Assembly: GCA_001600875.1 (NCBI GenBank)
Contig: BCLD01000016.1
Span: forward strand, 714,271-761,720
Source of the DNA: Solicoccozyma terricola
Taxonomy: Eukaryota > Basidiomycota > Tremellomycetes > Filobasidiales > Piskurozymaceae
Reading direction: 5' to 3'
Length of the DNA stretch: 47,450 nt
Shown here: piece after piece, positions 15,065 to 43,242 of the stretch
How the letters are laid out: each line of letters opens with the position of its first letter
How positions within the stretch are numbered: the stretch's first letter is position 1
The notes under the pieces: generated by a model
The model's input: the letters and a program-made list of their open reading frames with translations, nothing else
What the model was told of the DNA's origin: nothing
Databases searched by the model: none
Position numbers and translations under genes: made by a program

Positions 15065-16245
15065 ATGCCCACCACCACCACCGACACCACCGACACCGCC
15101 GTCGACCTTCTCAGCCTGACGCAGGACCTCAAACAAACCCTTCAAGCACTCCTGCATGAGAGCTTGGAACCAGTGTTACCCGTCGACATCCGGCAGAGAT
15201 TGATTGCTCGTCCCGAACTATACTCGCATGCAGACGATGGAGTAAAGCCACATGAGGATCCACTGGAGATACAGCCGTACTATGCAACGTCACAAGAACA
15301 GTTGTCTTCTGATGTTGGTGAACGGGAAGATGATGGAACAGCCGACGATGAATCTTGGGTCGAAAGGTCACTCCTCGTTGATATCGCGAGGTGGTCACGG
15401 CATCCTAAATCCTCCAAATCATTACGAAGAGCTCATTTAGGTACGCCCTGGGAACAGTTTGCACCACATATCAAGATCTAGGGACCCAAGATCTAACAAT
15501 TCACCCCAAATCCCTCTACTCAGACCCTCACGATTACTCCCTCATCGCCCTTTGCGCAGGCACCAAAACATACATAACCCCAGCTCAACGTCGATTATTC
15601 GCTTCAAATCCACGAACAGCATCTTCCTTCCTCCCTTCTCATCTTATCCCACCTGATCCTTTATCATCCACCTTGAGCATCGGACATGAATATAGGATCG
15701 CAAGTAGAGAATTAAGTGCGATCGCGAATGTGGTTTTTTCAGTGGGTGGGGTTGCAGGTGCGGTTTGGTGGGTTTGTCAGAGTAGTGCTGGGATGAGTCG
15801 AGAGTTGGTGGGTTTTCGCTTCGGTGTGCGCTGGAAACCTCTGCAGATACTGACTGATGACTAGGGGTGTAAACAACAGTCGACTCTAATAGCGATCCTT
15901 TGCGCTCTCGTCGTCCTTTTCGCTGAAATATGGCTATACATCTCGGTATCATCTCGAGTTTCAAAAGCGAAAATCGCAGAAGGAGAAGCGATGAGGAATG
16001 AGGTTGTTGTGGGTATGAAAGGGTTGGATGATGTTGAGGGGTTGGATGTTTTAGAGAATCGGAGGATGGTTGGGTTGGTGGAGTTGGAGAATGCTGAGGA
16101 GGAAGAGGAGGAGGACAATGAGACGATGAGGACGAACACTGAATCTAAAGAAGACATTCAAATAGAACCTGTGACTACAATCCCAGCATCAGACGTGGAA
16201 GCAACAACGACGATTCGACTACGACGAAGACCACTGAAAAGTTAA
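15065..16245 (+). CDS. VMA12: V-ATPase assembly factor Vma12 (ER membrane)
   Basis: Vma12 (Vph2/TMEM199) with Vma22 stabilises the V-ATPase Vph1 subunit in the ER. Exons: 15065-15440, 15482-15807, 15865-16245; 360 aa. Recognised from the pattern YRIASRELSAIANVVFSVGG, AGAVWWVC (TM1), then LIAILCALVVLFAEIWLYI (TM2), two adjacent membrane helices after a soluble N-terminal domain, followed by an acidic cytosolic tail (ENAEEEEEEDNE). N-terminal residues 1-125 include a TTDTTDTAVDLL start and a helical region. The first intron is only 41 nt (15441-15481), the shortest in the window, and its removal is essential because the unspliced frame stops in it. Divergent from COQ7. The 3' region is pyrimidine-rich. 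Confidence 0.88.
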
Positions 16246-16661: not shown

Positions 16662-17794
16662 CTACACCGCACCATGCAAAATCCACCAACTCACAGATTC
16701 ACCACAACCACATTGAAATCCCCTATCCATCTCCCATTCCGTAGAAGGATAGAAAAATGTCAAAGCCTGACCTTTTGGAATCGGTTTGGATAAGGATTTG
16801 AGTGTCCATTTAGAGGGTGAAGAAGAGGAGAGGTCGAATGCAGTGTTTGGAGTGCATGAGTGATTGACTGGGATAGTTTGAAGAAGAAAAGGAACAAGGC
16901 GATGTGTGTGTGTGTGTGTGTGTCAGCGTGTAGATCAATATCAAAAAAAAAGTATCAGTGTTCATTCGACACAATCAATCACACCGAACGCTCTTCAAGG
17001 AAGACGAAGGAATTCATAATGATGAATGAAACTCTTCGCCTGTACTTAGGCAGAGCAGTCCTTGCTACGTTTGCGAAAGGGGTATTGCTCGCTGTGCTCG
17101 GAGGACAGTATTCCTTCTTCGCATACGACAAGGGAGATGAGTGCTCGCTTCGCTCGCAAAGAGAATGAAGGCTCGCTATGCTGGTAAGATAATAGTCTTT
17201 GCTATGCAAAGAGAGAAGAGATGATTGCTCGCTTCATTCACGAAGAATATGATTGCTCGCTGCGCTCTCGGAAGAAGAGCTCCCTAACGAGAGCAAGGCA
17301 CTTTGTTCGCTCCGCAAAGAGATTCATGCTCGCTTCGTTCGCGAAAAAGGACCTACCAAACAGTAAATCCGAATTCAACTCGAAATGATCCGTCGAATTA
17401 ACCCCAAATTGAACCGACGAATACGCTTTAATCGGTGCGAGTGATATATTTGATAATACAGTGAGTACTGTATTTGGTTGAAGATCCTATATGGATTAAA
17501 AGAAAGGGATTTGGTGAATCGGGTCAGACCTTGGGCCTGGGCCGACTCGGAAAAAGGTAAACACACACCCACCTTCTCAGCAGCCAAACAACTATCAAAC
17601 CCATCCTCCTCATCCCCTGCATCCCTATCCCCATCCCTATCCGCATCTAAACCCCCACCACCACCTCCGCCAAGCACTACTTTAAACAACCCGTCATGAG
17701 TCGGTTTATATTTCAGTGCATGCGTCGCTGGGACAGGTTTTGAATATGGGATAGGAGGAGATGAAGGGAGGTGTGTGGTTATGAGGATGGTCAT
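16662..17794 (-). CDS. Small SET-domain protein with repeat-filled intron
   Basis: Exons (minus): 17573-17794, 17357-17486, 16662-16867; 185 aa. Exon 2 ends NSDLLF and exon 3 begins with the completing Val then NHSCTPNTAFDL, which together give the SET signature VNHSCxPN; ALTFFYPSTEWEM and GFQCGCGES follow, resembling the SET C-terminal turn and cysteine-rich post-SET of small fungal SET proteins. SET domains methylate lysines, but this one is short and lacks visible pre-SET; the first exon holds a 7-Gly/Asp-rich insertion (GGGGGGGLDADRDGDRDAGD). The intron between exons 2 and 3 (16868-17356) is 489 nt and carries the dispersed repeat. An alternative 33-nt intron at the end would move the stop to about 16645. 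Methyltransferase activity is inferred from family only. Confidence 0.75.
16903..16924. repeat. GT dinucleotide microsatellite
   Basis: About ten GT units inside the SET-gene intron, next to the acceptor-proximal end of the repeat-bearing intron. Confidence 0.8.
17030..17348 (-). repeat. Intron repeat array, copy 1 (SET-gene intron 2)
   Basis: In the sense (minus) direction this consists of degenerate units of roughly 27-36 nt with core GCGARCGNAGCGAGCA followed by a T/C-rich spacer (TCATCTCTTC-like). About eight units are recognisable. It includes the hairpin block GCTCTCGTTAGGGAGC at 17279-17294. No open frame is shared between copies. The same family occurs at 18465-18622, 22226-22340 and 30600-31512, each inside an intron and in sense orientation. 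Confidence 0.85.
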
Positions 17795-17818
17795 GATGGG
17801 ATGTAGCGATGTCTAGAT

Positions 17819-17863
<45 letters not shown>

Positions 17864-18254
17864 GGGGATGGAATGGTTTGAGTGTATCTGTGTGTGTGCG
17901 TTGCTGTCCTATCCCGTACCCTACATCCTTTGCTCTCTCTTCTCTCCTGTGTCTCACCGGTTCGGCCGGGTAACTGTTTCCACAGCTGAAATCAAATCTC
18001 GACCCGCCAACTCGTGTTTCAGCTTACGTCATGTGCACGTGACCCGGGATCGGGAACCAAGTTTCACATGTTTCCGACGATCCCTCCTTCCCTCCCCCAG
18101 CTTCCCGGCTCATTCCGGGGGGCGTCATACGTCATCTGCTTCCGGGCGAGTAGATAACAGGACACAAACATCCAGCTGTCCACACAAACACACACACCCA
18201 CCCATACATCCCACACATCCCACACATCCCACCTTGGAGCGTTGTATAGCAATC
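17795..18254. promoter_or_regulatory. Divergent promoter, SET gene / disordered-protein gene
   Basis: 460 bp. Holds a 44-nt G run at 17819-17862 directly upstream of the SET ATG, a CACGTGACC site (18036-18044), and a CCCACACAT tandem tract (about 18203-18232) just before the plus-strand gene. CACGTG is a bHLH-type core; its use here is inferred. Confidence 0.5.
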
Positions 18255-19852
18255 ATGCAAGGAGTAAGTGGAGTGTGGTGGACAGGCGAAGTAGTAGAGG
18301 AGACAGTGGAGGAGCACGGGAGTCGATGGAAAAGGCGTTCCTGATACAACGAAACGGTTACTGATGTTGATAACCACTTGCTTGCTTGCTCGCTTGCTCC
18401 GACCTATTGACTCGGATAGTTTATCGATCAAGCTAAGAATTTCACGGAGAGTGAGGCGGGACAAGAGGAGTTTGGTGAGTGAGAGGAGCGAGAATTCGTT
18501 TCTGTTGTCTTTGCGGTGCAAAGACCATGCTCCCGTTAGGGAGCTCTTTGTCTGCGAGCGCAGCGAGCATTCGTCTCTTCCGCGAACGTAGTGAGCAACA
18601 GTCTGCCTGAGCGTAGCGAAGAATTATTCTCCTTCTCCTTCTTCCTCTTCCGTCTCTTTCTCTGTCTTCTCTCCTTTCACTTCTTCTTTCTCTTCCGCGT
18701 CTTCTTCTTCCTTCTTCCTCTTCTTCTTCTTCCTTCTTCCTCCTCTTCTTCTTCGTCTTTTCTCATCCTATAGTAGAGCGTAGGGTGATTGCTCGTTGTA
18801 TCTAAGCGGGAAACTGACTGGGATGCTTTGGGGCTTGGTCCGGGTGATTATAGAGAAAGCTGTGAGGAATTCCTTTTATGACATCTTCGTCCTTGTTGAT
18901 ATCTCTAACCGTTCATTCGCTTCATCATTTTTCATTCTTTTAACAGACTGGAATCAACATCTCGTCTTACCTCGGTGGTGGCGGGGGAAACCAATCCGGT
19001 TCACAGAATCAACAAGGTGTGGAATCCACCACCCAACAAGGTCAATCTAATCCAAACAACAACGACGATGAGAATAATGAATTGAGTGGTGGGGTTGGTG
19101 GATACGATGATTGTGAGTTGGGGTTTCCCTCCACATTTCTTTTTCTTGCTTTTTTTCAAATTCCATAAAGGTGAAAAGAGTAGGGAGTGGTTATTAATTC
19201 CGCTTTGTGGTTGGGTAGCTACTTCGAGTGGTGGATATGGAAAGAATCAAGCTGGTGATTCGTTTTCTCGTCAGGTGAGGTCCTTCCCCCTTCCCCCTTC
19301 TCCCCCTTCTCCCCCCCTCCCCCACCTATCCACACGTCACCCATCCTTCCATTACTCCTTACACTCCCCAATGTCCATACCACCTTACCTCTTCCCCACC
19401 CCTTCACAGAATCAAATGGGAGCAGACACTCAAGGTCAATCCAACGACCAATCTGATACGTACCTTCCACAATCTGGTGGGACGGGCACTTCTACACCTG
19501 CTTATAGGCGTGAAGATGATGATGGTTCTGCTGGGTGAGTTTTTCGCTCCGTTTGAACGATGGGGCGTTTGGACCGCAGGGGAAAAAAAGGGGGGGGGGG
19601 GGGGCGGAGCTGGTGTGTGTGGTGGGGTTCTGAGGCTGATTGGGCTTTCATTTCATCGCTGCGTTGGATCTACGCTCTTGGATATAGTCTTGTGAGTGTT
19701 TGCACCGTTCCTCGATTCTTCTTGTTCGGGGAGGAATCATAGACGGAACCACTAATCGCGTCTCCCTTCCCTTGTATTTTTCACAGAACCCAAATGGGAA
19801 CAAAGACAAGACCAATAACACGCAACAAGAGGAGGACGAGGTTGAGATTTAA
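18255..19852 (+). CDS. Unrecognised Gly/Asn/Gln-rich disordered protein
   Basis: Not a family I recognise. Exons: 18255-18263, 18947-19112, 19219-19274, 19410-19534, 19688-19691, 19787-19852; 141 aa. The first exon encodes only Met-Gln-Gly. The product starts MQGTGINISSYLGGGGG, then Asn/Gln/Ser-rich segments (NQSGSQNQQGV, NPNNNDDENNE, GQSNDQSDTYLPQ) and an acidic end (QQEEDEVEI). No membrane segment, signal peptide or folded domain is visible; composition suggests a soluble, disordered, possibly stress-related protein. The 4-nt exon TCTT (19688-19691) is required to reach the last exon in the frame NPNGNKDKTNN that matches the composition and stops at TAA; direct splicing instead gives an Arg-rich tail. 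Intron 1 is 683 nt and holds a copy of the dispersed repeat plus a long CTT-rich tract. Moderately sure it is a gene, unsure of its exact exons. Confidence 0.6.
18465..18622 (+). repeat. Intron repeat array, copy 2 (disordered-protein gene intron 1)
   Basis: Sense-strand units such as TGCGAGCGCAGCGAGCATTC and CGCGAACGTAGTGAGCAACA. Contains the perfect hairpin GCTCCC-GTTA-GGGAGC at 18529-18544, preceded by GCAAAGACC as in copy 4. Followed by a CTT/TCC pyrimidine tract (18622-18775). A single further unit (GATTGCTCG) near 18787 is in the opposite sense. Confidence 0.85.
18622..18775 (+). repeat. CTT/TCC-rich pyrimidine tract in intron
   Basis: About 150 nt of almost pure C/T on the sense strand (cttcttcctc-like), in intron 1 of the disordered-protein gene. 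Low-complexity; no coding value. Confidence 0.8.
19688..19691 (+). other. Candidate 4-nt microexon of the disordered-protein gene
   Basis: Context GGATATAG|TCTT|GTGAGTG. It converts phase 2 to phase 0 so that the last exon reads NPNGNKDKTNNTQQEEDEVEI and stops. Confidence 0.5.
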
Positions 19853-20189
19853 GTTGGCCAGTGGAATGAAAAAGTTGAGAATGGTTCGGAAGAATGGATG
19901 ATTGGGTTTGCGGGATTGTATGTTGATGATATGAGACATGATAGACCAGATAATATTATTCCAAATCGATGCGGTATCTACTGTCGGAGTTCAATGAGAA
20001 CAAAATTGCAACATTTGGAGATGAATGAACCAGGTCATGTCTATGTAGAATATCTTATTGGGTTATACATTTGGAAACCAGATCCGGATGGAGTGTATCG
20101 TGATTCCGGGCTAATTCTATGGGATTCTGTCATCTGGGGATGTGCCTTCTATTCATCGGCGATATATTGCAAAACACGGAAAGGAACAT
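19853..20189. other. Convergent 3' intergenic gap
   Basis: Between the disordered-protein gene (+) and the CDF gene (-). AT-richer than its neighbours; open frames here show no family features. No gene or RNA motif recognised. Confidence 0.5.
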
Positions 20190-22574
20190 CTAAGAGTGCT
20201 TGCGGTGTTCCTTGATGATCGAACGTCCAAACACGTCAGCGTCCCACATCACCCCCAACCTCCTGACCAACCGCCAACTCACCGGCTTATGTTCAACTTC
20301 ATGATCGATATGAACAAAACACCTATCAACATCCGGTAGAGCCTCGATTTGATCCTGTAGATCTTGTGCGATATCATGTGCTTTCCATAATGGCATCGCC
20401 CCATCCATGACGATGTCAATCTCGACAAAGTATTCGGGTCCTGAATGGTAGACTCGACATGTGTCGATGGCTTTAATGGCATCGTTGAATGTCATGGCCT
20501 GGGCGGTGGAGGGGGGGGGGGGGGATATGTGTGCAAACGAGGGGTTGGGATTGCACGGTGTCAGAAGGCCACGAGAAGATTTGAATTTCCTCCACAACCG
20601 GCACACACCTTGTACACGACCAACTGTTGGAAATCAACAGGTGCAGCGATCCCAGCGAGGAGTTTAAATTGTGCTACATGTATGAGCAAATGTTAGCTAC
20701 CCATGAGTTCTCTCAACCGGGACTGTCATTCTCACCAAAGAGCGTCCTAGTCCATGCGAAGATGATACAAGTCGCAATGAGCATAGCGCCCATAGGATCC
20801 AACTGGAGTAATGTGATGGATTAGCATCGGGTTGCAAGACGAGTTGCAACCGGGATATGCGGTGTTTATTCCAACTCACAAACCAAATGATCTTGGCACC
20901 GGCGGCGGAAGTGAAGATACCGAAACTGATATGCCCCGCCTGAGTGTCAGCCCTGAATGTTTTAGGTCTCAAGCCATTGAACCTCAAACCATCTCACCCG
21001 TTGCTAGTTGAAAACAACAGCATGTCAGTTCCATTGCACACCGGCGTTGCAAATCCCCCCGACCAGAACACTCACACAAACAAATCATTCCTATGATCCT
21101 CGAATAGCACTTGAACCTGACTGGAATGTTTCCTTATCGAGAAACAGTACAAGAACAGCGCGAATTTGGTGACTGTCGATGAGATGACCCATCAGCCCTC
21201 CATTCAGGCCCGACCTCGACTCCTCTTCCAAAAGGAAAATAAGAATCTCCCGCTCAGACTGTAACTCACGAAACGCGACACCAACAGCGATCAAACTCGG
21301 GATATGAAGCTTTGTTGTGTCTTCTCCTTTTGTATGTGTCGCGATCGATCTAATCGATTCGACGATAAGAATTAGATTGACCATTCCCATGAGGCCGCCG
21401 TAGACAATGTTACCGCTGGTAAGGTTGGTTTTGAATGGAAATGCCACATTGATCAGGACGAGGCTCCTTTCATGAAACCACTTCGTAACCAGGGCAGTCA
21501 ACACTCACACTGCGGGGAAACGACCACGATCAGCAAACGATGGACAAGATTCCTCGTGATACAATCTTGACGACGACCAACAACTCACTACTCTCAAATC
21601 GACTTCCACCCATCGGCCATTTCTTCTCGTCCACATTTTTACTCTTCTTATGCAACACATTGAGGAGCACATTGGCGAATGGATCAAAGACTGCGTCGAT
21701 TGCAGTTGCGAAGAGGGATAGAGATAGGGACGAGATTGCGGCGTATAGCTAGATATGAAAGTCGGATGATGTGGGCGGCGAGGACCGACGGAAAGGGTTG
21801 AGAAGAGGTCATATGATGATCGGTGAAGACGGTGTCGGAAATGTCCAATCAGATCAGCATCAAGTCCTCTCAAGTGAAACCCAAACAAGCACACCCACCT
21901 GAAGTGCCGCCAGCGCGAAATTAGCGATAAAGCTCGCTCTAATAGCGATCCTAACCTTGAGTGCGTTATCTTGCGTCGATTGAGCTGCATCGGCGGTATG
22001 TGCGTGTAAAGGTTTGAGGAGGTTTGCGATGTGCTATAGAGGAGAGATGATGGTGGACTTAAATGACAGCGAAAAGGATCGGTAGATGGGTGTGTCGGGA
22101 TACGAACATCGTTTTGACCTTGATAGAATTCTGACATCTTCTTCCCGCCTTTCTTGCGACTGGAAATGACCGGATCGAGTAAACCATCAGCTCAGAGTAC
22201 CTTCCTTTCACGGGAAATTTGACGTTGCTCATTGCCCTCGCGGAGTATGATATTCTGCGCTACGCTCAGAGATGGAGAGTGTTGCTCGCTATGGCGAGCA
22301 TGGTCCTCGCGAGACACGAACTCTCGGTACGCTCGCAGACTCACTTTCTCAACTCCATCAACTCCCCTTCCCCCATAATCCTGCCTCTCAACAACAACGG
22401 GTCTCTCTCCCCTGCCTCCCTCCCCAAACTAGAACTCGGAGTCTCATCCACGACGATATCGTGCGATGTGCTTGTGGTGTTGTGAGTTGAGCGGTCGAAG
22501 ACGGTGGTAAGTGGTGGTGAGGATATGGGAAGGGTGGATAGGTGGATTGTCTCTGTTGTGGTGGATGTTGCCAT
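20190..22574 (-). CDS. Cation diffusion facilitator, Mn-type (DxxxD motifs)
   Basis: Proton-coupled divalent metal efflux transporter. Exons (minus): 22345-22574, 22108-22159, 21899-22033, 21589-21748, 21509, 20998-21003 and others: 21270-21415, 21076-21172, 20880-20925, 20736-20802, 20609-20673, 20283-20498, 20190-20210; 413 aa. Family features: RKKGGKKMSEFYQGQND before TM1; ATAIDAVFDPFAN in TM2 and EDHRNDLFVNGFG in TM5, both with D-x-x-x-D, the signature of manganese-type CDFs rather than the zinc-type HxxxD; LDPMGAM before TM6; and the cytosolic C-terminal domain KAIDTCRVYHSGPEYFVEIDI ending HIDHEVEHKP. Two microexons are needed: a single T at 21509 (joins ES-I-GNIVYGG) and CAACGG at 20998-21003 (gives FVNGFGIFTS). 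The intron after QND uses GTTCGT. Intron 1 holds the dispersed repeat. Metal specificity and membrane (Golgi/vacuole) are inferred. Confidence 0.92.
20998..21003 (-). other. 6-nt microexon of the CDF gene
   Basis: Sense context AACTAG|CAACGG|GTGAGATG. Joined to GT of the upstream exon and T of the downstream exon it encodes Val-Asn-Gly, completing DHRNDLFVNGFGIFTS, the family consensus at TM5. Confidence 0.8.
21509..21509 (-). other. Candidate 1-nt microexon of the CDF gene
   Basis: Sense context CCCCGCAG|T|GTGAGTG: a consensus acceptor and donor separated by one nucleotide. The upstream exon ends in phase 1 (A) and the downstream one begins with C, so A+T+C makes Ile and gives RFESIGNIVYGG, matching the conserved RFETIGNI of CDFs. 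I found no donor at phase 2 in the upstream exon edge and no other internal exon of suitable length without a stop. Confidence 0.65.
22226..22340 (-). repeat. Intron repeat array, copy 3 (CDF intron 1)
   Basis: Three to four degenerate units, sense strand: TGCGAGCGTACCGAGAG, CTCGCCATAGCGAGCAACA, TGAGCGTAGCGCAGAATATC. It occupies most of the 185-nt intron 22160-22344. No hairpin block is seen in this copy. Confidence 0.75.
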
Positions 22575-23880
22575 GATGACAGCGATGGATTGTTGATGAC
22601 ACTGTCGTCGATGCCAGCTTGATCCACTCCATTGAATAGGAAATCGCCGATCACAAATGGCCCACATGGGTGGCGGAGCACGTGACACGGTGGCGGTGGC
22701 AAGATATGGGGTTCAGAAATCCCAGTATGAGATCGAAAGGAAGGGCCGCCCAAAGCAATTGGGTGGTGCTAGAAGTGGAATACATGCTGTGTCTACCAGC
22801 GAAGAAAGTGAGAAACCCCAGTCAAATTGGGCAAAGCGAAAAGCAAAAACAAACGCAAAAGGCGTAGTCACCAATGTCATTCAAATCGCCGAGACAAGCG
22901 AGATTTCCAAATGCGAAAAGTCCAAAGGTTGGACATCGACCTTGAACTCCAAGACAGCACCCACAGCGTCGAAGAATGCATGCTGCTATCGATCTTGCTA
23001 AAGATTTTGCCAGCTCGAGCTCAGGGTACGACAACAGCAGTCACAGTCAATCAAGGATGGTCCACACGTACAAGGGTCTTTTAAAAGAGTTGCAAATGGG
23101 CATTGACAAGGGGAAGCTTGCCGTTGAGGATTAGAATTGTTAAAGTGAGCAGAGCAAACCTGTAGAAGAACAAATCAGACGTCACTTTGAATGCAATGAG
23201 ACAATATGGCCACGGACCACTGCCCCTTAACATTTGCGCATGTGCTAATGACAAAACGGCTGATATGAGTCGAGAAGGCTAGATGGAGGAGGTCTGTTAC
23301 GGTTGTACAAAAATAGGCTCATAATACAGCCTATTATCTGTCCGGCCGTGCAACAGGCCAACTGTCTGGCAGCAGTACTTCTTACAACCCATGCGTCCAT
23401 CTGATCGTCTGTCTGAAAATCCCAAACAAGTATAAAAGGCAGGTTCGAAGTCTTGTCAACCTTGTACTTTTCTTCTTTCTGATCACCAAAAAAGATATAT
23501 TTTTGTGACCGTGACTTCGACGAGTTCAACAGTCTTCCAATCTGAGGCAAATTGGAAACCGCGAATCTGTGCGGCACATATCTCATCGTTTCGTACTCGT
23601 GGATCGGCGAGCTGCGAAATGGGCTGATCGACTCGAGCCATTCCCATTGGTGTCTGACTCCCGCCTCATGTCATACAGGTCCTGCACTCCTAGTATAGTA
23701 GCTCTTCGACATGAAGGAAGACGAGTAATGATCGCCGCTGCCACCGCCACCCAACTTTCACGTGACATTGTGTCTCCCACGTGGCCCTTCAACTATCTCT
23801 CAACCATCCCCCTACAACCACCCCTACGACGATCCATCACCATCTTCATCTCCCTCATCCCCCACCCCCCCTCTTCAATC
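22575..23880. promoter_or_regulatory. 1.3-kb divergent region, CDF / TFB1
   Basis: Largest gap in the window. CACGTG cores at 22679-22684, 23759-23764 (CACGTGACA) and 23778-23783 (CACGTGG), the last two about 100-120 bp before the TFB1 ATG. A TATAAAAGG box is at about 23431-23440 on the plus strand, followed by GGTTCGAAGTC (about 23442), which resembles a pol III B box but with no tRNA fold. A possible small ORF at 22976-23134 is listed separately. Confidence 0.45.
22976..23134 (+). CDS. Possible small gene or 3' exon (52 codons), unrecognised
   Basis: A frame starting MHAAIDLAKDFASSSSG and ending KELQMGIDKGKLAVED before TAG has protein-like composition (helical C-terminus GLLKELQMGIDKGKLAV) and lies in the 1.3-kb gap with no other feature. 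Just upstream, a lysine/arginine-rich frame begins at 22827 (MGKAKSKNKRKRRS), so the two might be exons of one small basic protein, but I cannot find a splice junction that joins them cleanly. I recognise no family. It could equally be random open sequence or a 5' UTR. Confidence 0.25.
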   Translation: MHAAIDLAKDFASSSSGYDNSSHSQSRMVHTYKGLLKELQMGIDKGKLAVED

Positions 23881-26616
23881 ATGTCCACTCCCACTACCAC
23901 ACGTAGATACCGTGCATCATACAAGAAATCACCCGGCACTCTCTACCTGACCCCCACCACCCTCTCATGGAACGCAGACACTCGAGGGACAGAAGTAGTC
24001 CGTGTTCAACAACTGTCTCGGGTAGCAGGGATGTTTCAATCGAAAGCAGGAGCGAGCAAGACTAGTATTAAGATTGTTTTTGTGAATGATATTCCACAAG
24101 GAGGTCTGACGTTTGTCTTTACTGGGGAAGCTGTTAAAGGGTTGACGACAGAAGAGGAGATGTCAGAGGTTGTGAATACGGCGGAAAAGGCATTGAAGGA
24201 TCGACAAGAGGTCGTCGGGGTCTTGACGAATGTTATTGGAGCGAATAACGAGAGGAGGGCAGCTGCGAAGGAGGATGGAAAGGTTGATGGGGAAGATGAG
24301 GTTGATAGTGGTCAATCGTTGGCTCCGTCTCCAGTAGCGTCTGGATCGGGATCGGGAATGGGAACAACGAGAATACCAGATGGATCAGCACCACCTCCTG
24401 CGAAACGTCAACGACTGACAGCGGCGACATCTAGATCGGGTACTCCTGGTACACCTGGCACACCAGGCGGTGTCGATGTTACAGGAATGTCAAAATCAAA
24501 TAATTACGATCTCAGACGAGCCGTATTGTTGAAGCATCCAGAGTTGAAGAAATTGTATATCGATGTTGTGGTAAAGCAGCAGGGCAAGGTTTTAACGGAG
24601 GAGGAATTCTGGAGTGGTCGACAAGTGGGTGATCGTTTTTTTTTTCCCCTTTCTTTGCGACAAGTCCCAACCGTGAACACTGACCCGTTTTGTAAAATCG
24701 TTACAGCACCTCGTACAACAAGAATCCCTAATCCAATCCCAAATACCCGGTCGATCATCTCAACTGCTCGACGATCGGTTCGGATTCTCATCATCTTCCA
24801 AAGCTACGACAGGAGGTGGAACCGGGTTAGGTGTAGCAGCAGCTGGGAAACCAAAATTGGATGCGGAAGGTCCGAAGACGATGGCGCTTTCGCAGGAATT
24901 GATCATGGAGATTTTCGAAGAATTTCCAATCGTTCAGAGGATTTATGTTGATAATGTCGGTGGAGAGAATGGAGTGAGTATTGCCTTAACAAACTGTTCT
25001 CTAAAGTTCCCCGCGTTCGAGACGTTGATGAAATTTTATTCCCCTGCGAATAGCTCACCGAGACGGAATTCTGGCAGCGGTATTTCAATTCAACGTTATG
25101 GGATCGACATCGAGCTTCTACCCGTACAAATTCGACTGCAGCTGGTACAAGAGAAGAGAGGGAGAAACATGACGACGTATTTGACAAGTACTTGGAGGAG
25201 CCGGATGATGGTGAGTTCCCCGAGTTGTATGTTTAGTGGGTTGGAAACACGTTGATGGAGGTTTGGGGATGGGCAAAGACCTTGAACCGAGACAGGCGCC
25301 AAAGAGGAGCGTGGATATGTTTTTGGATCTTGCTGCCACGGAAGAGGATCACGATGAGGTAAATAACGTGGTTTCCGCATTGATTTTCCATCATGGCCTC
25401 AAGTTGATAAGCCATTATTCAGACTGGAAATATCAATGATTATACAATGCAAGCGGGTAAACAGCGGAACACCTTACCTTTGATCAGGCGATTCAATGAG
25501 CATTCGAATCGGTTGGTGATGAGGGAGTGAGTGGGCGGGTCATCTGTCGCGAAATGGCAATTCATGGCTGAAGCTTTCACGGAGTAGCGAGGAAACGGAC
25601 GAAGTTGATGAAGATGAATTGAGAGTGAGTCAACACTCCGTTTGCCGTCGATTAAACTTTCCTGAAAAACCCCCTCTCGCACTCCCAGAACCGGATCTAC
25701 AACGAGATCGAGATAAACGATCTCCGAGCGCCACAACAGGAAGTGACCTACAAACTCGACGTACAAGGGCGACAGGACAAATTCAGTGCGTCCAAGGGAA
25801 ATCAGGAGGATGAGTTGGAGGCGTTTGCCGCTAGGAAGAGCTCCAAAGTGAGTCGTTCTAGAGTTCTTTAAAGCTACACGTTTCGCTGAACATCTTCCGA
25901 CACGGACGCAGGAACTGCGCGCTCTCATCAAAGAAGGACGTTCAACCCTCTTGACGTGGAAGCCAAATCTCCCTTCTATCGTTCCTCGACTTCCAGACGA
26001 CCATCCTGGTGCTCCGGGGGCTGTGCGGGCGAGGTCTTCCGCGACAGCTGGACCTAATTCCACGGTGGAGGGATATGCGAGGTGTAAGAGGCTGGCACAG
26101 GAGGCGATTCGGAATGTTACGGATGCGATCGTTACGGCGAACGATGCGTCCGCAGACAAATGTGAGTGGCTAGCGACGGTATCCACCGTGATACCGTTGG
26201 ACACTAACAAAGCGGGGTGATTCCCATCTAGCTCCGATCCCTGTCGACATCATGAATCAAATCCTATCATGCCATAACGCAGCTTGCGAATTCCTTCGCC
26301 AATTCTGGTCTGCTGTTCTACCTAACCTGCCTGGAACGCTCGGCGCGCCAACGAATCAACAAAAAGTAGACAAGGCGAAGAAGATGGTAGATTATTTGGC
26401 AAAGACTGGAGAAAAGGTGGATGGGGTGGTGAAGAGTGCCGTAAAGTCGGGCATGGCGGATCCAGATAGAGTCAAGGAGGTGAGTGTTTGGTTGGGAAAG
26501 ACCACATTTGAAACGGGGGNATTGACCTTAATCCAACTTTACAGGCACTCGCACCCACGCTCTTCGCTGTCAGCAAAGCAGTCGCGCATTACGAGGCATC
26601 AAGCGGCAAGAGGTAG
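23881..26616 (+). CDS. TFB1: TFIIH core subunit p62/Tfb1
   Basis: Scaffold subunit of TFIIH for pol II initiation and nucleotide-excision repair. Exons: 23881-24624, 24707-24973, 25054-25210, 25279-25358, 25423-25526, 25585-25624, 25689-25847, 25912-26161, 26232-26479, 26545-26616; 706 aa, all phases closing. An N-terminal PH-like domain (about 1-110: YRASYKKSPGTLYLTPTTLSWN, VFTGEAVKGLTTEEEM) binds activators and XPG/TFIIE. Two BSD repeats follow: LLKHPELKKLYIDVV...LTEEEFW (about 215-246) and LIMEIFEEFPIVQRIYVDNV...LTETEFWQRYF (about 308-345). GNINDYTMQAGKQRNTLPLIRRFNEHS and a C-terminal helical region (LAPTLFAVSKAVAHYEAS) are typical. A Ser/Gly/Thr-Pro-rich linker (SGTPGTPGTPG) lies between PH and BSD1. 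One N at 26520 sits in the last intron. Confidence 0.95.
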
Positions 26617-26769
26617 GGAGAGTGGCTGCTCGGTCTGCTGCATTCATCAGTGAGCATTGTCTAGATAGCAATGTATCCTCGAACGAACAGATACGGCGAA
26701 TTGTACAAGTAATGAACTGTCGCTCTTCCATACCAAATGGCGACTTTTCTGCCGAAGCGGGTGTCCTTC

Positions 26770-28187
26770 TCACATACCGTCCACACCTTCCGGTACCCTT
26801 CCCTCACTCAACACTTTTTCCAACCTTCTAACCTCGTCAATGCTCGATGCACCCTTGATCATCTCTCTAATCCGCGTCTTCTCATCATCAGTCATCAATC
26901 TGCCTTTCCCAACGACCGCCTCTGCGCCACTAGCTTTGGCGGTGGCAGCGAGAGCAGCAGAGTTCGCTGCGTCCGAAGTCAGGGACAAAGCGAGCTTGGT
27001 TGGGAGATGTGTTTCAGGTGTCTCGAAGAGAGCTTTCGCGGATGCTCGCTCAGCATCTTTTATACGTCGGAAATCAAGGGTCCTAAGGCTTGATCCCATC
27101 TGCGGGATGAGGTTTTTACCATCAGATTTTAAAGCAAGTGACCAAGCGGATTGTTTTGATGACCCACCTTCCAAATCACCCATTCTCGGTAATATTTCTC
27201 ACCTCGGACAGGGTTTGAGAGGAGGGACAGATGTATGAGGTTGGAGAGGTTTGCGAGGGGGAGTAGGGAAGAGAGGGTGGCTAGGGAGTTACTGGAGAGG
27301 TCTGGATACGATTGAATGCGTAAGTAGATCGTTCACAGATATCGGAGGAAGTTACACATCACTCACTCAGACTTTCAAGTTGAGGAACCTATACCACCGA
27401 CATGTTTCAACGTATTCAGCATACAATTGGCTTCGACTATATCAAGTGATCACTCACGCTATTTGCAAAGTTGGGAGCGATAGCTGAGATGTTGTTGTTG
27501 GATACATGGATTGTCCGTATCCGAGGTGCTGATGGAGGGTGTATTGATGGTGAGTGGATATGCGCACACCACAAAACCGTCTCCAGCCACTGATTCAAGG
27601 TCGGCGAAGGAGTTTCTCACTCCTACGGGATATCGTCGACCATCGTCCAATTCTACCGCGTCCATCCTTCTACCTCCTGGATCAACATTACAGAACGACA
27701 CTCACACAATGGCAAATTCCCCAGCACAGTCAACGAATTATCGGTGAGATTCAATGTATCATATGAGCCTTGATGCGATGCCAGGTTTTCAATGAGTGGG
27801 ATTTGAAGGCCTGTGAGGAATAAGAGGGTGGGTTGTTGTGGACATTATTAGTTGATTGTCAGACTGAACTGGAAAGTGGGTGGGTGGGTGCTGTCACGCA
27901 CCTCGAAGATCCAACTCTCTCTCCTTGAGCGGGTTGAGATGCTGGTGGGATGCAATCGTAATGGGTAGGTCGAGGAGGGAACGGTAAGATTTGTTGGAAT
28001 TACAACGATTGACGGACACAGCAGAGACACAGAGGACAGAGGTCAGTATGGGACGAGGATGTTGGACGATGCAGATACTTGCCGACTGAGACCGCGCGAC
28101 GACCTGATGGATGAGACGACAATAATCAGCGTGTGACGGACGAAATCTTCGCGCACGCATGCTACTAACCTCTGGAGTAAGCCTCAT
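26770..28187 (-). CDS. LEA1: U2 snRNP protein A' (Lea1)
   Basis: Leucine-rich-repeat protein that binds U2 B'' and U2 snRNA stem-loop IV in the spliceosome. Exons (minus): 28170-28187, 28083-28103, 27902-27941, 27706-27810, 27458-27528, 27367-27388, 27168-27301, 26770-27099; 246 aa, the usual size. Reads MRLTPEVVARSQSHLNPLKERELDLRGLQIP, then LRRs (TIHVSNNNISAIAPNF, LESLNLSSNSLATL, LIHLSLLSNPVRGEKYYREWVIWKM), then SLRTLDFRRIKDAERA, the canonical cap. The first three exons are only 18, 21 and 40 nt. The second intron starts GCAAGT and ends CACCAG, a GC-AG intron; using the nearby GT shifts phase and breaks HLNPLKERE. The 177-nt intron 27529-27705 is long for this gene. Tail to tail with TFB1, 153 bp. 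Confidence 0.93.
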
Positions 28188-28524
28188 CTGTGTGTTGTTG
28201 TGGTGGTGAGGGCGTGTGTGTATCTGTCCTGTCGAGCTGAGGATGTTGTAGAGGGTTGTGTGGGAATATCCCGAGGTCGCCGATGTCCGTGTCAGTGTCC
28301 GCGATGTCCGCGGTGTCAAGAAATAAATCTCTCATTTCATTTTCCCACTCGAGCTGTTTACATGTTTGTGGGCAACTATTCGTTCTCCTCTAAAAGTCAT
28401 TTCTCCCCGTTTCTCTCCCTCGCATTGGTATTCACAGATATGCAATCGAATCGTTTAGAGACTATCAAGTTTGGTGTAACAAGTCAGATGGGTTGCCCAG
28501 ACAATTCCATGCATTTCCCTAGAC
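28188..28524. other. LEA1 promoter / FBA1 3' region (337 bp)
   Basis: Tandem minus-strand genes. Contains GATGTCCG-like repeats near 28281-28314 (GTCCGCGATGTCCGCGGTGTC), just upstream of the LEA1 ATG; a similar GTCGATGTCCGTG tandem lies at 34336-34388. No gene seen. Confidence 0.45.
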
Positions 28525-29483
28525 TTACCGGTTGACGTTACCGAGGTCCTTGCACGCAACCTGGATACGCTCCTTCATGGTCTTCTCACCCTCACGAACC
28601 CAAACACGCGGGTCGTAGCTGAAATGAATGAAAAAGACAAAATCTATTCAGGATATCCCGTTCCCCACGAAGACCTCCGCGATCAAAATCACTGCCACTA
28701 CCACTCACTACTTCTTGTTGGGCTTGTCTTGACCGTCTGGGTTACCGACTTGGCTCTGGAGGTAGCCCTCCTTGGACTTGAAGAAGTCACGCATACCAAT
28801 AAGGTAAGCGAATTGGGTGTCAGTGTCGACGTTCATCTTGACGACTCCGTGGGAGACGGCCTCGGTGATTTCCTCCTTGGAGGAACCGGAACCACCGTGG
28901 AAGACGAGGAAGAGGGGCTTGTCACCACCCTTGCCCTTGAGTTGTTGAGCGGCGTAAGCTTGGTGCTTGCCAAGGAGCTCGGGGCGGAGAACGACGTTTC
29001 CTGGCTTGTAGACACCGTGAACGTTACCGAAGCTGAAGGAGGGAGGGAGGGAGCACTTCGTTAGATTCCACACCTGAAAACCCCGAAACCCCGCTCGAAA
29101 ACGAAGAAACTCACGCGGCGGCAATGGAGAAGTTGGGGCTGATGGCGTTCAAAGCAGAGAACACCTCGTAGATGTCTTCCGGCTGGGTGTACAACGAAGA
29201 GTTGTCGGCACCAGTGTTATCAACACCATCCTCTTCACCACCGGTGATACCGATTTCCATCTCGAGGAAGACTGTGGGTCGGAGGTGGGACGGGATGTCA
29301 ACGAGGTGTTTCATCGAGCTCGTTTTTTGGGGGGGAATCTCCACTCACGATCAATAGGAGCCATTCGCTTGAAGTACTTTACGCAATCAGCAATGTTCTC
29401 CTCCTTGGACTCCTCTGACAAATCGAGCATGTGGGAACTGAAAATCCCGCCCAAATCGTTCTTATCAGCTCACAGTCCCCCCC

Positions 29484-29533
<50 letters not shown>

Positions 29534-31548
29534 GGGCACATCTCCGCACACTCACGAGAACAAAGCAACACCGTGCTCCTTGAAGTACTTCTCATCGGCA
29601 TCAAGCATTCCATCCATCCACGGCAACAACTTCTTCGCACAATGATCAGTGTGCAAGACAACTGGGATCCCATACGCAGGTGCGATAGCACGAATGAAAT
29701 GAGCAGCTGCAATTGCACCTGCTACGGAAGCGTTTTGGGTTTTGGAATCGTTTGCGATACCTTTACCGGCGAAGAAGGCGGCTCCACCTTGAGAGCATTG
29801 AAGGATGATGGGTGATTTGAGATCACGAGCGGCTTCGAGAGCGGCGTTGGCGGTGGATGAGGATGTGACGTTCTGGGGGCCGGGGGAGGGGGGGGGGGGG
29901 GGGGGTCAGGATATGCAGCGATTTGAACAAGTGACTTCGATGATGGCTTACGATGGCTGGGATAGCGTACTGGAACGAGAGAAAGACAGAAGAAAAAAAC
30001 GCCCGACATTATCAGTTTTGGGGTTTCTGATCTCATAACATCCGCTACATATCCAACAGATGGAAAAACCATGACAACTCACGTTGTGCTTCTTAGCGTG
30101 CTCGAAGAGCTGACGGGTTTGAGTACCGGTCAAAACACCAGCCTGAACGGAGGGGAAAAGGTGGGAATGAAAAGTGAGTCAGTAAGGATGTATAAGATAA
30201 GGGAATTCATATACCGAAACCAAGGGAGGGGGGTTTTTATTTTCGGGAGAACCACCAGTCAGAGGAAAGCAGAAATGGAAGAGGATATAGAGAAGAGAAG
30301 GGAATTCGTAGGAAACGAGGTATACCTGCATACAACCCGAAGACAACGATGAAAGATTGCACCCGATGAAGCTCGGTAGAATCTAAGGAAAGAGGTACGA
30401 TGACGCGGAACGTTCTCAAAAGCCAGAAAGAAGATCCATATCAAACTTCAGTCTCGACACGAGTAGAACGAGTTGTGTCGAAAACTGGCATGACACGTGG
30501 GGAATCGAGACCCAAGCAATAGGAAAATCGCTTCATCCTGTCTTCCAACGTCGTCGGAAATCCTTCCTCCCCCCACCACCCACCCCCCAGATGAAACCAT
30601 CGAGCGGAGTACTGCTTACTACCGTCGCGAAGAGATGAATGCTCCGTCCGTCGGCGAAGAAAGAAAGAGAATACTACTCGCTCCATTCGCAACGAAGAGA
30701 GTATTGTTGACTTTGTTTCGCAAAGAAAGAGAAAATCGCTCACTCCATTCGCGAACAAGACGGTATTTGCTCTATTCGCGAAGAAAGAGAATCTTGCTCC
30801 CTTTTGTTCGTGATGAGATGAGAACACTGCTCAATCCCGTTCGTGAAGAGATCAAGGCAATCCGATTCGGGTTTGCGAAGAGAGTACGGCTCACTTCCTT
30901 CCGAGAAAGGACACCCATGATTCACTCCACTTCACGAAGAGAGAACAGATTATTGTTGCTCAGTCCGTTCACGAAGAAATGAATGCTTCGCTCCCGTTCG
31001 CGCGAAAAAACAACGAACAGAGATTTTGCTTACTCCGTTTGCAGAAGCAGAATAGAGTATTGCTCATTGCGTTCGCGAGAGCAGAACAGAGTATTGCTCA
31101 CTGCGTTCGCAGGACAGAGTATTGCTCACTGCGTTCGCAGAAGCAGAATAGAGTATTGCTCACTGCGTTCGCAGAAGCAGAATAGAGTATTGCTCACTGC
31201 AATCGCGAGAGCAGTACAGACTATTGCTCAATGCGTTCGCAGAAGCAGAGCTCCCTAACGGGACCCAGGTCTTTGCTCCGCGAAGAATTGATTGCTGGCT
31301 TCGCTCGTGAAGAAATGAATGCTGGCTTCGCTCGCGATGAATGCTCGCTTTGCTCGCGGAAGACAGTAGTCTTCTTCGCTCCGCGAAGACAGAAGAGATG
31401 AGTGCTCGCTTCGCTCGCGAAGAATTGAGTGCTCACTACGTTCGGGGAGAAGATGAATGCCCGCTTCGCTCGCGAAGAAATGACTGCTCGCTACGTTCGC
31501 GTCAGCGCTGTGTACACTCACGGGGACGATAGATAGAGCACCAGACAT
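28525..31548 (-). CDS. FBA1: Fructose-1,6-bisphosphate aldolase, class II
   Basis: Zinc-dependent glycolytic/gluconeogenic enzyme, cytosolic. Exons (minus): 31522-31548, 30083-30142, 29950-29967, 29556-29872, 29349-29437, 29115-29271, 28709-29032, 28525-28618; 361 aa, the normal size. Reads MSGALSIVPAGVLTGTQTRQLFEHAKKHN then YAIPAI (an 18-nt exon) and NVTSSSTANAALEAA. Catalytic and zinc motifs: VVLHTDHCAKKLLPW, LEMEIGITGGEEDGV, AFGNVHGVYKPGN, LVFHGGSGSS (phosphate loop) and MNVDTDTQFA. Intron 1 is 1379 nt, more than ten times the usual length, and is largely the dispersed repeat array. Introns at 29438-29555 and 29873-29949 contain C and G runs. As a highly expressed gene, its long 5' intron may matter for expression; that is inference. 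Confidence 0.97.
29485..29531. repeat. 47-nt poly-C run in FBA1 intron
   Basis: Uninterrupted C run in the intron 29438-29555. Length is likely unstable or approximate in the assembly. Confidence 0.8.
30600..31512 (-). repeat. Intron repeat array, copy 4 (FBA1 intron 1), the largest
   Basis: About 25-30 units. Sense-strand consensus GCGAACGNAGYGAGCA plus ANTACTCTATTCTGCTTCT-like spacer; units near 31035-31240 are almost identical (period about 28-34 nt), while those at 30600-31000 are more diverged, consistent with recent tandem growth at one end. The hairpin block (GGTCCC-GTTA-GGGAGC-like) is at 31250-31264. The plus strand keeps several frames open by chance of the repeat; none resembles a protein. 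Confidence 0.9.

Positions 31549-43159: not shown

Positions 43160-43242
<83 letters not shown>

Follow-up and report, generated by a model that had tools for sequence, protein, structure and literature searches.

The 47 kb window under study (47,450 nucleotides (nt), a piece of contig 16 of the 23.9 Mb genome of Solicoccozyma terricola) harbours four arrays of a short repeat, unit A, which are located in introns of four genes and contain in part further modules, B, C and D. Unit A is exemplified by the core 5'-GCGAACGTAGCGAGCA-3' on the transcribed-sense strand (31485..31500, minus strand). With up to three mismatches permitted, 33 core matches were detected in the window as compared to 1.44 expected from shuffles, and 27 of these fall into the four arrays (6, 2, 1 and 18 in arrays 1 to 4, respectively); the remaining six lie outside and carry three mismatches each. 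The four arrays named in the first-pass annotation are thus real, and their sense orientation relative to their genes, likewise claimed there, was observed in all four cases.

Array 1 (17030..17348, minus strand; core matches and module parse) comprises A units together with two B modules and one degenerate C module. Judged from the exon frames, its intron starts at a donor at 17356 (gtaggt), 14 nt ahead of the first unit. The previously proposed intron behind this donor was retained; its acceptor, however, is placed at 16145 by the gene model and not at ~16868, and the assignment of the gene as SET could not be confirmed, with no family found for it in Pfam. A stretch NHSCTPN...YPSTEWEM...CGCG of the gene resembles the end of a SET domain. 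Array 2 (18475..18622, plus strand) consists of a GTGAGT donor at 18475, a degenerate A unit 4 nt from this donor, an exact composite of modules B and C, two A units and, by eye, a D-like unit. The composite, CTTTGCGGTGCAAAG + ACCAT + GCTCCCGTTAGGGAGC, forms two stems (18509..18544, plus strand; contig 16: 732779-732814). The sense gene model (score 29) agrees with an intronic position, but assigns the array to intron 2 of 8, with an uncertain acceptor, rather than to intron 1 as initially annotated.

Array 3 (22226-22340) resides in intron 1 (22160..22344, minus strand) of a cation-efflux (CDF) gene, an earlier assignment borne out by the gene model and the Pfam family Cation_efflux. It is a weak array with a single core match of three mismatches; by eye, its other units are degenerate and the first one is situated about 8 nt behind a GTGAGT. 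The largest array of the window, array 4 (30600-31512), contains between 18 and 20 A units, according to the cut-off applied, as well as B and C modules, the first unit lying 21 nt behind the donor. Its annotated location in intron 1 of FBA1 (30143..31521, minus strand, 1379 nt) follows from the gene model with the array masked and from the aldolase alignment; without masking, the model begins inside the array.

Genomic distribution and intron placement

Genome-wide, 207 exact cores were found versus none for the reversed pattern, which excludes chance. Permitting G at position 5 contributed another 476 and 14 exact cores, yielding 697 in total. Grouped by hand, the listed core positions form ~100 clusters. 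The 40 clusters that come first along the genome were read with flanks (half of them in stretches of 9.4 kb, the other 20 in stretches of 2.6 kb); 12 further stretches of 2-3 kb comprise five that widen the flanks of three earlier ones and seven extra clusters selected by hand, most of which contain several exact cores. L numbers used below are the labels of such stretches. An array was defined by at least two units with at most two mismatches or by one exact unit, and the window together with all stretches provided 60 arrays. Genes were modelled with an ab initio gene finder built for this analysis from splice, branch and coding signals, which was initialised with an assumed splice consensus and then retrained on the same DNA stretches (resulting consensus: donor GTGAGT, branch CTGAC/T, acceptor CAG).

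Forty-six of the 60 arrays are located in a sense intron model, two overlap a sense model (FBA1, where the array falls into intron 1 once masked, and L055), two are located in an antisense intron model, and ten have no model, several of the latter being in short or edge stretches. Sense over antisense among the 48 arrays with an intron model thus amounts to 46 versus 2 (binomial p 8e-12). The pattern noted for the window, sense arrays inside introns of genes that are unrelated to each other, accordingly extends far beyond its four arrays. Affected genes encode ribosomal protein S23, aldolase, guanylate kinase, RAD50, RVB1, ClpP, a NUBP-type ATPase, PIG-S, an acyl-CoA oxidase, an endonuclease, a CCCH-finger protein, which we take to be U2AF35-like, and a metallophosphatase, assumed to be Dbr1-like. 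Introns with arrays of at least three units are 215-1913 nt long, the other introns having a median length of 80 nt. Arrays less than 3 kb apart form seven divergent pairs (L012, L016, L021, L043, L044, L056 and window 17086/18554), four pairs of the same direction and no convergent one; the ratio of seven to zero is as expected if array direction follows gene direction, and the divergent pairs presumably flank a divergent promoter with one array on each side.

Protein homology supports the array introns independently of the gene finder. In RPS23, the alignment KGIVLEK|VGVEAKQ runs without gap across a 674-nt array intron, and homology fits across the junction in GUK1 and from the residue following the short exon 1 in FBA1. 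It also fits in RAD50, adjoining a gap of four residues. In RVB1, a gap of 11 residues coincides exactly with the array intron, probably due to one misplaced splice site in the model. With respect to the host, a condensin subunit predicted from L022 shares 53-55% identity with its top matches in Naganishia, Kwoniella and another Tremellales species (best 120 of 2343 matches considered), in agreement with a member of the Tremellomycetes that has no near relative among these proteins.

Anchoring behind the 5' splice site

Across 47 array introns, a median of 23 nt separates the donor from the first unit (at most 50 nt in 31 of the 47) and a median of 172 nt the last unit from the acceptor, the 5' gap being the shorter one in 43 of 47. 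Looser array bounds resulted in medians of 16 and 172 nt and a shorter 5' gap in 40 of 43. The same asymmetry was obtained with the splice matrix only, i.e. with no use of gene models: a good donor precedes 34 of the 60 arrays by no more than 60 nt, follows none and is present on the antisense side of one, as compared to 8.8% of random windows. Six of the ten arrays without model and that of L055 possess such an upstream donor; no donor-like site was found just upstream of either of the two antisense arrays. Across the genome, and again independent of gene models, GTGAGT precedes a unit at a distance of 0-30 nt in 57 cases (54 distinct donors), follows one in no case and is found in antisense in four. 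That the placement is an artefact of the gene finder could be suspected from its ab initio models, assumed initial splice consensus and training on the same DNA, but is scarcely credible in view of the genome-wide donor counts, the array-flank test by splice matrix alone and the protein homology crossing the junctions.

Array introns are furthermore early introns. Among genes scoring at least 40, 25 of 28 array introns represent intron 1 or 2, as opposed to 133 of 446 other introns (p 4e-10; 29 introns of 5'-cut genes were excluded from the 475), and the median distance between donor and start codon is 238 nt for array introns versus 1244 nt for the others.

Module architecture and covariation within unit A

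The 15-nt unit A is predicted to fold via outer pairs 1-15 and 2-14, the mismatches G3.A13 and A4.G12, and inner pairs 5-11 and 6-10 closing a GNA loop. Accordingly, two sense 16-mers fold as ((..((...))..)). in ViennaRNA, and the antisense sequence stays open. Positions 5 and 11 covary: the genome-wide matches comprise 476 G-C, 190 A-T (207 minus 17), 17 A-C and 14 G-T combinations, as compared to about 347, 61, 146 and 143, respectively, under independence. Within arrays, 423 of 479 units have a Watson-Crick pair at this site versus 257 +/- 10 after permutation. The coupling was first noticed in the first 30 arrays and was repeated in 31 later ones (n=272; G-C 149, A-T 96, A-C 11, G-T 5); both states occur within one array in 29 of 31 later and 21 of 23 earlier arrays. 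The best conserved bases of unit A are the adenines 4, 9 and 13 (472, 470 and 469 of 479). The G-C state prevails in the units nearest to the donor (by eye at 45 of 54 distinct donors, by script at 44 of 52) as compared to 179 of 334 inner units, and the loop of these first units more often carries T (16 of 54 versus 44 of 334; p 0.004). A structural scan for the G.A form retrieved 308 sense hits and one antisense hit versus a mean of 0.55 in shuffles, a contrast that arises partly by construction, as the arrays were chosen by the core.

C-to-T and G-to-A changes were observed at the CpG sites 2-3 and 6-7 of unit A, suggesting that methylated CpG decays within the arrays. Such CpG-type changes are more frequent where they keep the fold (102 of 1403) than where they break G.A mismatches (19 of 938; p 5e-9), which also holds when C11->T is included among the fold-keeping changes (113 of 1671; p 2e-8). 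CpG decay was rejected as the source of the 5/11 coupling, since position 5 is outside CpG and only 11 of 268 G5 units carry T11. A function as decoy sites for U1, conceivable from the GTGAGC of A-T units, is disfavoured because the G-C units, which do not contain the GT, outnumber them.

Three further modules are interspersed with unit A: module B (CUUCGC-GGA-GCGAAG and variants), module C (GCUCCC-GUNA-GGGAGC) and module D (CUGARC-GNA-GYGAAG). Overall, 54 segments contain 469 A, 68 B, 39 C and 28 D modules. They are joined by short U/C-rich linkers (81% pyrimidine) of preferred lengths, namely 5 nt between B and C in 25 of 33 cases, 9 nt between C and A in 21 of 38, and 11-12 nt (145) or 6-7 nt (65) among 327 A-A linkers. 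The B-C composite is present in 44 copies genome-wide. In the energy model, B and C alone are stable (mean pair probability 0.92); with 40-nt flanks, the value is 0.80 for C and only 0.24 for B. In control collections, the B-C composite had no exact match in viral contigs and the A-linker pattern no match in prokaryote genomes. A scan of the window and six loci against Rfam revealed no match at gathering score. A minisatellite would be composed of one tandem unit of local origin, and the arrays instead contain four module types with set linkers that are common to unrelated genes.

These observations also bear on the possibility of passive intronic tandem repeats, which would have expanded by slippage and of which the orientation and place would reflect least harm. 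Array lengths indeed vary, up to 23 strong units, identical or near-identical unit flanks within arrays attest to local expansion, and introns tolerate inserts. The genome-wide 5/11 covariation and the donor counts of 57:0:4, however, strongly disfavour this explanation, as do the composite modules shared by unrelated genes, rendering it improbable.

Origin and possible role of the arrays

Any interpretation has to account for the established properties, i.e. anatomy, orientation and placement of the arrays, one covarying pair and the occurrence in many unrelated genes. The most likely reading, to which a probability of about 0.45 is assigned, is that the arrays represent a dispersed cis-acting RNA element in nascent pre-mRNA. 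Such an element would be a string of 15-nt hairpin-like units with some longer B/C hairpins and short U/C-rich linkers, which in promoter-proximal introns follows closely upon the 5' splice site in sense orientation, and may be read beside this site by a putative protein while the pre-mRNA is nascent. Among the suggestions of the first-pass annotation, donor anchoring, early-intron bias and the covarying pair 5/11 speak for a candidate role in splicing or expression; insertion that is coupled to transcription or targeted to donors may also apply. More tentatively, the arrays may constitute an intronic RNA platform, in which at least on the order of a hundred genes carrying the same array would be read by one dedicated protein or the U1 small nuclear ribonucleoprotein (snRNP) and thereby share a co-transcriptional control of splicing that spread by array copying.

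Several findings weigh against a cis-acting RNA element. Firstly, the predicted hairpin of unit A is the minimum-energy form in 290 of 479 units folded alone, in 9 of 479 with 40-nt flanks and in 5 of 479 within whole segments; z-scores of whole-segment folds are weak and nearly equal for both strands (mean -1.07 sense, -0.63 antisense). Secondly, pairs 1/15, 2/14 and 6/10 remain at the permutation level (418 vs 416.9, 427 vs 423.0 and 414 vs 416.7, respectively). The weak fold and the covariation would be reconciled if the G.A hairpin were kept in shape by a protein. Thirdly, the 5/11 coupling could in part be a trace of two old unit types. Flank-matched unit pairs from different arrays (within 2 of 22 bases) share the 5/11 state in 41 cases and have opposite states in 32, which speaks against two unit lineages as the sole cause, albeit not fully, as recombination could have reassorted the flanks. 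Fourthly, two arrays have antisense models (L040/L049/L050, 3221-3434 of the joined stretch, minus strand; L044/L051, 1278-1501 of L044, plus strand), and six arrays or single units, these two included, have neither a sense model nor a good upstream donor (L040/L049/L050, L044, L032, L019, L009, and L037 at 2437). Finally, 42 other introns of more than 200 nt contain no array as defined here, and the donors of array introns score higher (mean 6.83) than those of other introns below 150 nt (6.16), which gives no sign of a rescue of weak donors by arrays.

Ranked second, and a serious contender, is a selfish repeat copied from intron to intron in a strand- and site-specific manner, the hairpins of which would serve copying and not the host. 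Such copying might start by insertion or gene conversion at sites resembling GTGAGT behind the 5' splice site, or intron RNA might find its way back into DNA; the units themselves resemble the donor (GTGAGC/GTGAGT), in agreement with a selfish repeat of this kind. Copying did occur, since homologous blocks A-7-B-5-C-9-A with identical linkers turn up in unrelated genes. The array ends are diffuse. BLAST matches are confined to seven among pairs of 43 array-intron tails, some of which probably stem from residual units or C tracts, and to two among pairs of 54 upstream flanks (heads). Shared blocks together with mostly unrelated tails and flanks indicate copying without the rest of the intron, so that the array alone would have moved between introns. 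The promoter-proximal bias, however, would require an additional cause for a selfish repeat, and the excess of fold-keeping over fold-breaking changes would imply constraint after the spread or that only young copies are visible. Orientation and donor anchoring demand an RNA- or transcription-linked cause for a cis-acting element and a selfish repeat alike.

The arrays were further compared to known systems. Introners, whole new introns made by a mobile element, share with the arrays the multi-copy, intronic and sense occurrence and the similarity near the 5' splice site (PMC9860276, PMC4457414); the fungal cases compared here belong to Pezizomycotina/ascomycetes. By definition, their similarity spans the whole intron including the 3' splice site (PMC9860276). 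In contrast to such whole introns (PMC9860276, PMC4457414), the present arrays are tandem units in promoter-proximal introns with unrelated 3' ends: similarity begins close to the 5' splice site (median 23 nt) but ends well before the 3' splice site (median 172 nt), and the tails differ. A bias in intron phase seen in few genes was gone on the full count (phase 0 in 15 of 28 versus 195 of 475, p 0.24) and lends no support to introners either. An origin of the arrays as introners is therefore highly improbable, and the likeness suggested earlier fails at the 3' end of the introns.

Motifs of intron-mediated enhancement are likewise found in many genes and in introns near the gene start, but in plants represent short words, e.g. 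TTNGATYTG, as opposed to hairpin-like tandem arrays tied to the 5' splice site (PMC8157754). The early-intron placement would be consistent with an enhancing element of this kind. In Saccharomyces cerevisiae, stems near the 5' splice site matter, i.e. zipper stems and an intron helix on early spliceosome complexes (PMC12350175). Like the arrays, these are RNA stems inside introns near the 5' splice site; their conservation, however, is low (20-30% between species for most) and they are distributed over unrelated introns, whereas the arrays represent one sequence family in many genes (PMC12350175). Tandem repeats and introns also meet in a related yeast group, where a ~107-nt repeat of Cryptococcus CNN00420, consisting of a whole intron plus exon ends, is duplicated within one gene (PMC2395259). 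In contrast to the arrays, this repeat carries the whole intron and is restricted to a single gene (PMC2395259). Among the results listed from a search of the open-licence literature in PubMed Central, nothing resembled such arrays. Of the families examined, neither introners nor minisatellites account for the arrays, and the Rfam scan of the window and six loci assigned them to no known family.

If acting in RNA, the arrays would add to a compact fungal genome a multi-gene layer of splicing or expression control encoded in its introns, and would offer a clear handle in that a single hairpin family keeps to a single strand and position. If selfish, they would represent a repeat that recognises strand and splice site, and intron lengthening and spread between introns would become directly testable.

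Next to the arrays, C-rich tracts were observed right before the 3' splice sites of the array introns in L011, L023, L024, L031, L035, L036 and L048, as if standing in for a polypyrimidine tract. Long runs of C (or G), up to 80 nt, are also present in the window (29477-29531, 43161-43240 and 17819-17867).

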